Source of the DNA: Terriglobales bacterium | Lineage (GTDB): Bacteria > Acidobacteriota > Terriglobia > Terriglobales > Acidobacteriaceae | Assembly: GCA_035937135.1 (NCBI GenBank) | Contig: DASYVL010000133.1 | Location: 1 to 34,747 of the forward strand | Direction of reading: 5' to 3' | Length of the DNA: 34,747 nt | Part shown: positions 9,380-12,374 of the stretch, in pieces | Layout of the letters: each line of letters opens with the position of its first letter | Position numbering within the stretch: the stretch's first letter is position 1 | Made by a program: the position numbers and the translations under genes | Notes under the pieces: model-generated | Database searches by the model: none | What the model saw: only the letters and a program-made list of their open reading frames with translations | Told to the model about the DNA's origin: nothing

Positions 9380-10474
9380 ATGAAGAGCCGCGTCGCCCCG
9401 CGAGGGGTCGCAGAAAAATCAGAGGAGCCGCGCCGGGCCACCCCCGTGGACCTGCGCAGTGACACGGTCACCAAGCCCACGCCGGAGATGCGCCGGGCCA
9501 TGGCCGAGGCCGAGGTCGGCGACGACGTCTACGGCGAAGATCCCACCATCAACCGCCTGGAGCATCTCGCCGCCGAGACCTTCGGCCGCGAGGCCGCGAT
9601 CTTCGTCCCCAGCGGCACCATGGGCAACCAGATCGCCATCAAGATCCACACTCGTCCCGGCCAGGAAGTCATCTGCGAGGAGCGCGCCCACATCTTCAAC
9701 TATGAGATGGCGATGCTCGCGGCCTTCTCCGGCTGCCTCGCGCGCCCCATCCCGGCAGCGGACGGCATCCTGAGCTGGGCGGAGGTCAAGAAGCGCATCC
9801 GCCCCAAGACTTACTACATCTCGCAGACCGGACTGGTCTCGCTCGAGAACACGCACAACATGGCGGGCGGGACGGTGTATCCCACGGAAGTCGCGAACGA
9901 GATTTGCGACGCCGCCCATGACGCCGGACTTCCCGTGCATCTCGACGGCGCGCGCATCTTCAACGCCGCGGCGGCGCTGGGCCAGCCCGTGGCCGAGATC
10001 ACGCGCAAGTTCGATTCGGTGATGTTCTGCCTTTCCAAGGGACTGGGCGCGCCGGTGGGCTCGATGCTGGTGGGCAGCCGCGGCTTCATCGAACAGGCGC
10101 GCGCCTATCGCAAAGCTTTGGGCGGCGGGATGCGCCAGGCGGGAATCCTGGCGGCGGCGGGCCTGATCGCCCTGGGGAAAATGCCGGCCCGCCTGCGTGA
10201 CGACCACGCCAACGCCCGCTTCCTGGCCGATGGATTGGCCGAGGTTCGCGGCATCCGCCTGGATGCGAAAAAAGTTCAGACCAACATCGTAGTCTTCGAC
10301 ATCAGCGGCACAGGCATGAACTCGGCGGAGTTCTCGCGACAGCTGGCCGAGCGCAACGTGCTGGCCAACGGCATTGACCCGCAGACCATGCGCATCGTCA
10401 CCCATATGGATGTGGACCGCGCCGGCTGTGAGCGCGCGCTGGACGCGATCCGCGCCATCTGCGGTGAGAACTGA
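9380..10474 (+). CDS. ltaE: Low-specificity L-threonine aldolase (PLP enzyme)
   Basis: The enzyme cleaves L-threonine or L-allo-threonine to glycine and acetaldehyde in the cytosol. The 364-residue protein carries the family N-terminal motif [19 protein letters not shown] for cofactor phosphate contacts, H104 stacking on the ring, HLDGAR with D189, and the PLP-binding K220 in [13 protein letters not shown]. The first 22 residues precede the family core and are charged; the DNA there contains CCCC-GCGA-GGGG. A GTG at 9446 directly before DLRSDT is an alternative start. It follows hemW after 51 nt and precedes the SRPBCC gene by 18 nt. Confidence 0.93.
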
Positions 10475-10492: not shown

Positions 10493-10951
10493 ATGGCCAT
10501 ACACCTCGAATACTCCGTGAGCGCGAAGTGCCGCCCCGAGCACATCTGGGAGAAGTTCGAGAAGCTCGACCAGTGGCCATGGTGGAACCGCGTCATCGCG
10601 CAGAGCAAGTGGCTGGAGGGCCAGCCCTGGCAGAAGGGAAGCCGCTTCCTGATGGAGCTGGCGCGCCCCATCAACATGAAGTTCGAACCCGTGGTCCTGG
10701 AGTGCGCCGCGCCGCACAAGGTCGGCTGGGTGGGCAAGGCCATGGGCGTGCGCGGCGAACACTGGTTCAGCTTCGAGCCCCAGCCCGACGGAGCCACCCT
10801 GATGAAGACCTGGGAGGAGTTCACCGGCCCCAGTACCCTCTTCTTCGGGGACGGCAGGAAACAGGCGGTGGTCAAGATGTATGCTGACTGGTTCGAGGCA
10901 CTCAAGTTCGAAGCCGAGCGCATCGCCCGCGAGGCGGCGGCGCGCTCCTGA
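10493..10951 (+). CDS. SRPBCC (START/Bet v1-like) ligand-binding family protein
   Basis: A cytosolic protein of 152 residues without signal peptide or membrane segment. The pattern of an N-terminal beta strand, the paired helices around PEHIWEKFEKLDQWPWWNRV, a strand-rich middle (KGSRFLMEL, HWFSFEPQPDGATLM) and a long C-terminal helix is that of SRPBCC polyketide-cyclase-like proteins. These have a deep hydrophobic cavity and bind lipids or other ligands; the ligand here cannot be told. It lies 18 nt after ltaE and 11 nt before the SelW-like gene, so co-transcription is likely. Confidence 0.8.
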   Translation: MAIHLEYSVSAKCRPEHIWEKFEKLDQWPWWNRVIAQSKWLEGQPWQKGSRFLMELARPINMKFEPVVLECAAPHKVGWVGKAMGVRGEHWFSFEPQPDGATLMKTWEEFTGPSTLFFGDGRKQAVVKMYADWFEALKFEAERIAREAAARS

Positions 10952-10962
10952 CGGAGGCAACC

Positions 10963-11205
10963 ATGAACGTGGAGATTAAGCGCTGCTTCACCTGACTCTC
11001 GATTCTTTTTGAGGCGGGACGCCTCAAGCGGGAGATCAGGGAAAAGCTGAATATCAAGCCGAAGATGAGCTTCGGCGGAGTGGGTGTGCTGGACGTGATG
11101 GTGGACGGCAGGACCATCTTCTCCCACCAGGCGGAGCGGCGCATGCTGGTTCCGGGGGAGATTGTGGCGCTGATCAGCGCGCTCCAGGGCAGCGCGCCGG
11201 CCTAA
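10963..11205 (+). CDS. SelW-like (Rdx family) selenoprotein with in-frame UGA at codon 11
   Basis: Reading from the ATG at 10963 (GGAGG 5 nt upstream) through the TGA at 10993-10995 gives 80 residues ending at a TAA. The product begins [11 protein letters not shown], a C8-x-x-U11 redox motif near the N-terminus as in SelW. After the TGA it continues with a helix ([14 protein letters not shown]), then [20 protein letters not shown] and [11 protein letters not shown]. That matches the Rdx/SelW plan, in which a strand with V-x-V-D-G and a basic or polar segment precede a C-terminal helix. The gene is invisible to standard ORF callers because of the stop. A SECIS-like hairpin lies 14 nt after the UGA. 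It sits between the SRPBCC gene (11-nt gap) and an acyl-CoA dehydrogenase (26-nt gap). Family members are thought to be thiol oxidoreductases. The alternative, a gene broken by a nonsense mutation, is less likely given the hairpin and the position of the TGA. No selA, selB, selC or selD is in the window. Confidence 0.83.
11009..11027 (+). promoter_or_regulatory. Bacterial SECIS-like hairpin
   Basis: TTGAGGCG (11009-11016) pairs perfectly with CGCCTCAA (11020-11027) around loop GGA. The loop begins with two G, and its first base is about 21 nt after the UGA. Both features fit bacterial SECIS elements, which lie inside the coding region directly downstream of the Sec codon and bind SelB. Confidence 0.75.

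Positions 11206-11231: not shown

Positions 11232-12374
<1,143 letters not shown>

Follow-up and report, generated by a model that had tools for sequence, protein, structure and literature searches.

Does the TGA at codon 11 of a short reading frame in this Terriglobales genome terminate translation, or does it encode selenocysteine (Sec) in a SelW-like protein? We addressed this question in the window, that is, the whole stretch of 34,747 nucleotides that was analysed. When TGA was translated as U, the frame at 10963–11205 (+) comprised 80 codons from the ATG at 10963 to the TAA at 11203–11205, with codon 11 (10993–10995) as the single in-frame TGA. A Shine–Dalgarno region (GGAGG) is located 5′ of the ATG at 10950–10962 (+), and the TGA completes the redox motif Cys8-Phe-Thr-Sec11 (10984–10995, +), a column kept in relatives, which comes after strand 3–7 in an AlphaFold2 model. 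A sequence-only reading of this DNA had described the 80-codon frame, the Shine–Dalgarno sequence, the C8-x-x-TGA11 arrangement and the TAA end, and all of them were confirmed. The length of the open frame was dropped as proof of a Sec gene, because at least 69 sense codons follow 152 of the 792 TGA codons (19%) in the six frames of the whole GC-rich window, all of which would qualify. Since such stretches are common in GC-rich DNA, an uninterrupted frame behind the TGA carries no weight as evidence by itself and homologues were therefore needed.

A search of 120 related genomes returned SelW-like matches in 10 genomes besides the window's own. Nine of these 10 relatives carry a TGA at the aligned codon and Cys three residues before it; the tenth (G023) reads PLFP at the motif position, with neither TGA nor Cys. 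Among 396 genomes drawn from the phylum Acidobacteriota, 121 yielded a SelW-like match, and nearly all matches listed contained one in-frame TGA. C-x-x-U was present in 30/30 phylum loci read out in full, a set that includes the window's own locus and thus represents about 29 further acidobacterial loci. Cys aligned with the TGA, by which the earlier reading had proposed to verify its assignment, was indeed found: eight homologues display CTQC with Cys at the Sec column (L083–L090, from genomes G402, G463, G137, G177, G242, G281, G311 and G484). One further MAG contained RCWTU (L104, gp1 AA123), and a contig search using the part of the SelW alignment after Sec led to two MAGs, while a plasmid search with the SelW-like sequence gave no match. 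The in-frame UGA is thus conserved, and some homologues have Cys in its column, as expected for a selenoprotein gene. Comparison with the nearest relative over 62 codons revealed 17, 20 and 25 mismatches at codon positions 1, 2 and 3, respectively, which is a weak test. Given homologues that share the TGA, Cys8 and the downstream sequence, together with the aligned Cys homologues, the frame is, as judged by sequence comparison, far beyond chance.

The same alignment bears on two other readings of the TGA. If the UGA were read as another amino acid, for instance Trp by general recoding, or by unspecific read-through, it should not be expected to align with Cys instead of Trp, and genes of this lineage also end in TGA, such as the SelW homologue of G015 and the SRPBCC gene of the window (10949–10951). 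No support for recoding or unspecific read-through was found, and we assign this reading a negligible probability. Alternatively, the frame could be a pseudogene, namely a former Cys-type SelW that suffered a nonsense mutation and is decaying in place. The interrupted tRNA-Sec of the draft and the loss of the gene or of its redox residues from the same slot in G023 and G038 (see below) are in line with such decay, but the TGA is kept across families and remoter lineages of the phylum without additional stop codons, a pattern not expected from neutral decay, and the downstream hairpin covaries. Conservation of the TGA thus largely refutes the pseudogene reading, which we consider extremely unlikely.

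Two further types of copies were noted. One copy from another family (L055; G233 C18:34009–34227) is unusually near to the window's sequence (IKRCVTU...LKREI) and has no acyl-CoA dehydrogenase neighbour; horizontal transfer is possible. Furthermore, several Acidobacteriota encode a second CxxU paralogue type (YCDTU/YCPTU; L098, L099, L101), which matches over the first ~55 residues only and stands beside the SelW-like copy in some genomes.

Concerning the family, the single-sequence match to Pfam Rdx (PF10262) was too weak to serve as proof (16 bits, E 0.014, under the 22.6-bit cut-off). All 10 clade members, however, matched Rdx, the best at 3.4e-18, and profile–profile comparison of the window's clade with canonical SelW scored 99.8% (E 2.2e-28, 74 columns), the SelW-like sequences on the other side of this comparison matching Pfam Rdx down to 3.8e-35. 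Sequence matches in the PDB were SelW-related or MIEN1 (C17orf37) chains. An AlphaFold2 model calculated from two sequences reached a pLDDT of 89, and its first PDB fold matches were SelW-related (2fa8, 2p0g, 3dex and 2obk; TM 0.71–0.84), with all 22 best fold matches being SelW-type entries or MIEN1. Sequence match, an N-terminal CxxU after the first strand and a predicted thioredoxin-like SelW fold thus concur with Rdx/SelW-like proteins (PF10262). While the single sequence was weak, the clade profile, the relatives and the fold were decisive for the Rdx/SelW identity that had been proposed from the sequence alone: the product of 10963–11205 (+) is an Rdx-family SelW-like protein.

In bacteria, Sec is inserted by SelB and Sec-tRNA-Sec with the aid of an mRNA hairpin, and the bSECIS elements sought by bSECISearch are hairpins with a G starting a small loop about 16–37 nt downstream of the UGA. 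The sequence GAGGC(GGGAC)GCCTC at 11011–11025 (+) agrees with this description: the SECIS-like apical hairpin begins 15 nt past the UGA, and its loop follows after 20 nt. Two computations gave fold z values of –3.8 and –3.5 for the region after the UGA. Across 11 relatives, the five-pair apical stem was 89% paired, compared to 16–42% when slid, and its covariation score was reached by 0/500 shuffles. The relatives also exhibited changes on both sides (CG/GC exchange) in the basal part of the apical stem, with these informative changes confined to one pair; moreover, the hairpin doubles as coding sequence for a conserved stretch of the protein, and protein conservation may account for part of the pairing. 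In the window a longer fold reaches back to the UGA, but this extended lower stem is not common to all relatives, and the folds of 3/6 homologues were barely, if at all, more stable than those of shuffled sequences, as judged by z-score.

The sequence-only reading had also implied a full Sec system elsewhere in the genome. SelA (C159, 560 bits), SelB (C72, 379 bits) and SelD (C180, 371 bits) are indeed encoded in the window's genome, as befits a selenoprotein producer, whereas tRNA-Sec is represented in the draft by its 5′ 43 nt only (C145:360–402, minus strand; L051/L043 in G000). This piece (CGGTCTTCAAAACCG) matches the gene of G025 at 95% and ends exactly after the anticodon arm. The 3′ half was absent throughout the assembly and no intact tRNA-Sec was found there; the top RF01852 match in the genome was rejected as a candidate, being a tRNA-Ser with UGA anticodon. 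ARAGORN detected an intact tRNA-Sec(UCA) in 10/10 relatives tested. selA was present in all 11 genomes with a SelW match, yet also in 92/120 genomes overall, so that the co-occurrence is mildly informative. As a separate observation, the selD gene (L029; G000 C180:12610–13539, minus strand) contains its own in-frame TGA (AAGUASKLSP) and represents a second selenoprotein.

The exact cut after the anticodon arm could indicate that an inserted element recently broke tRNA-Sec (selC) in this strain; UGA would then act as a stop, leaving SelW and SelD as relics of recent origin. However, selA, selB and selD are intact, and integrative elements that enter a tRNA gene usually rebuild it in full. In addition, the genome is a draft of 192 contigs, and because the contig stops 359 bp past the cut, the assembly does not include the far end of any insert. 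A recent loss of decoding is thus very unlikely in our view; the likeliest explanation is that an integrative element has its attachment site at the cut within selC, an intact tRNA-Sec presumably lying outside the draft assembly.

The frame, the conserved TGA column, the Cys homologues, the covarying hairpin, the family, the predicted fold and the genes for SelA, SelB and SelD argue with high confidence for a small SelW/Rdx redox protein of thioredoxin fold, with Sec decoded from UGA codon 11 via SelB and the downstream hairpin. Counting against this assignment are the missing intact tRNA-Sec in the assembly, the single-sequence Pfam score, the non-universal lower stem, and two relatives that keep the gene without Sec, one with Glu at the Sec column and the other with Pro at the Cys and Sec columns alike. 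We infer that Sec is actually inserted in this organism: SelB and Sec-tRNA-Sec would read UGA codon 11, guided by the hairpin that follows closely on the mRNA. Cys8 and Sec11 would then likely form a reversible selenenylsulphide, since the pair opens the first helix as in thioredoxin-fold oxidoreductases, and the protein may serve a partner as thiol/selenol oxidoreductase, this partner perhaps being tied to the co-located acyl-CoA dehydrogenase and aldolase.

These neighbours were assigned by domain matches and synteny. Upstream lie a GntG-family PLP-dependent aldolase of the threonine-aldolase type (9380–10474, +; NCBIfam NF041359, E 3.7e-131) and, immediately before the SelW gene, an SRPBCC/Polyketide_cyc2 domain protein (10493–10951, +; Pfam PF10604, E 2.6e-10), whose stop at 10951 precedes the SelW ATG by 11 nt. 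The acyl-CoA dehydrogenase (11232–12374, +; Pfam PF00441/PF02771/PF02770) starts 26 nt past the SelW TAA; its identity in relatives is 81–87%, and it was present in 64/72 family genomes. All three genes flank SelW in most family relatives having the SelW gene, although some loci are truncated at their ends and SRPBCC is missing from some. By comparison, the SelW slot is variable, as a SelW-like frame occurred at 7/30 acyl-CoA dehydrogenase loci (five with Sec, one with Glu, one with Pro for Cys and Sec), some of the loci without a match being cut by contig ends. The Glu copy (L122, G038) reads CFWE in a genome with selA, and the Pro copy (L125/L024, G023) reads PLFP in a genome with selA and tRNA-Sec. 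Judging from these sequences, some relatives appear to have lost the SelW gene or its Cys/Sec from the slot.

We know of no substrate of a bacterial SelW. The conserved neighbourhood offers a lead to a partner, and we regard the adjacent acyl-CoA dehydrogenase as just such a lead; a search of open-access papers gave no report linking this enzyme to SelW. It is conceivable, though rather doubtful, that the divergent Sec-SelW subclade serves as a dedicated redox partner of the acyl-CoA dehydrogenase/aldolase cluster and, because the same slot keeps the fold without Cys/Sec in some relatives, that these copies have a second, non-redox function. If true, a dedicated partnership would give bacterial SelW a specific metabolic role.

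Sec-containing SelW is a known and abundant bacterial selenoprotein family, and the window's gene is a divergent member and no new kind. SelW-like CxxU proteins are established bacterial selenoproteins, of which organisms that use Sec have hardly any Cys homologues or none (PMC1794560), and they formed the most numerous selenoprotein family of the marine GOS survey, with 427 CxxU sequences (PMC2398784). The claim that all standard gene callers would miss such a gene was not supported in that form, as homology- or SECIS-based predictors exist (bSECISearch, deep-Sep; PMC12013277). The apparent novelty here lies in a divergent subclade (K/R-R-C-x-x-U) that occupies a conserved aldolase – SRPBCC – SelW – acyl-CoA dehydrogenase slot. 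A common family thereby gains a subclade whose window member falls under the Pfam cut-off, and Sec-type SelW readings prove to be spread through the Acidobacteriota.

In fold, size and N-terminal CxxU, the window's protein equals bacterial SelW-like proteins (PF10262). Whereas the canonical acidobacterial SelW copies found here read YC-x-x-U-NY, the K/R-R-C-x-x-U clade has no Tyr before the Cys, lacks most of the GRFP motif, contains one extra residue after Sec and adjoins the acyl-CoA dehydrogenase. NCBIfam NF041051 (SelTWH_Campy) was the best single-sequence family match (E 4.5e-7, residues 3–71), but the protein scored 30 bits where the cut-off is 88 and hence lies outside this equivalog. 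The fold predicted for the window's protein is also that of Cys-type SelW/Rdx proteins (CTQC; e.g., Agrobacterium Atu0228, PDB 2fa8), which differ by a Cys where the window's protein has Sec, as do the acidobacterial CTQC forms.
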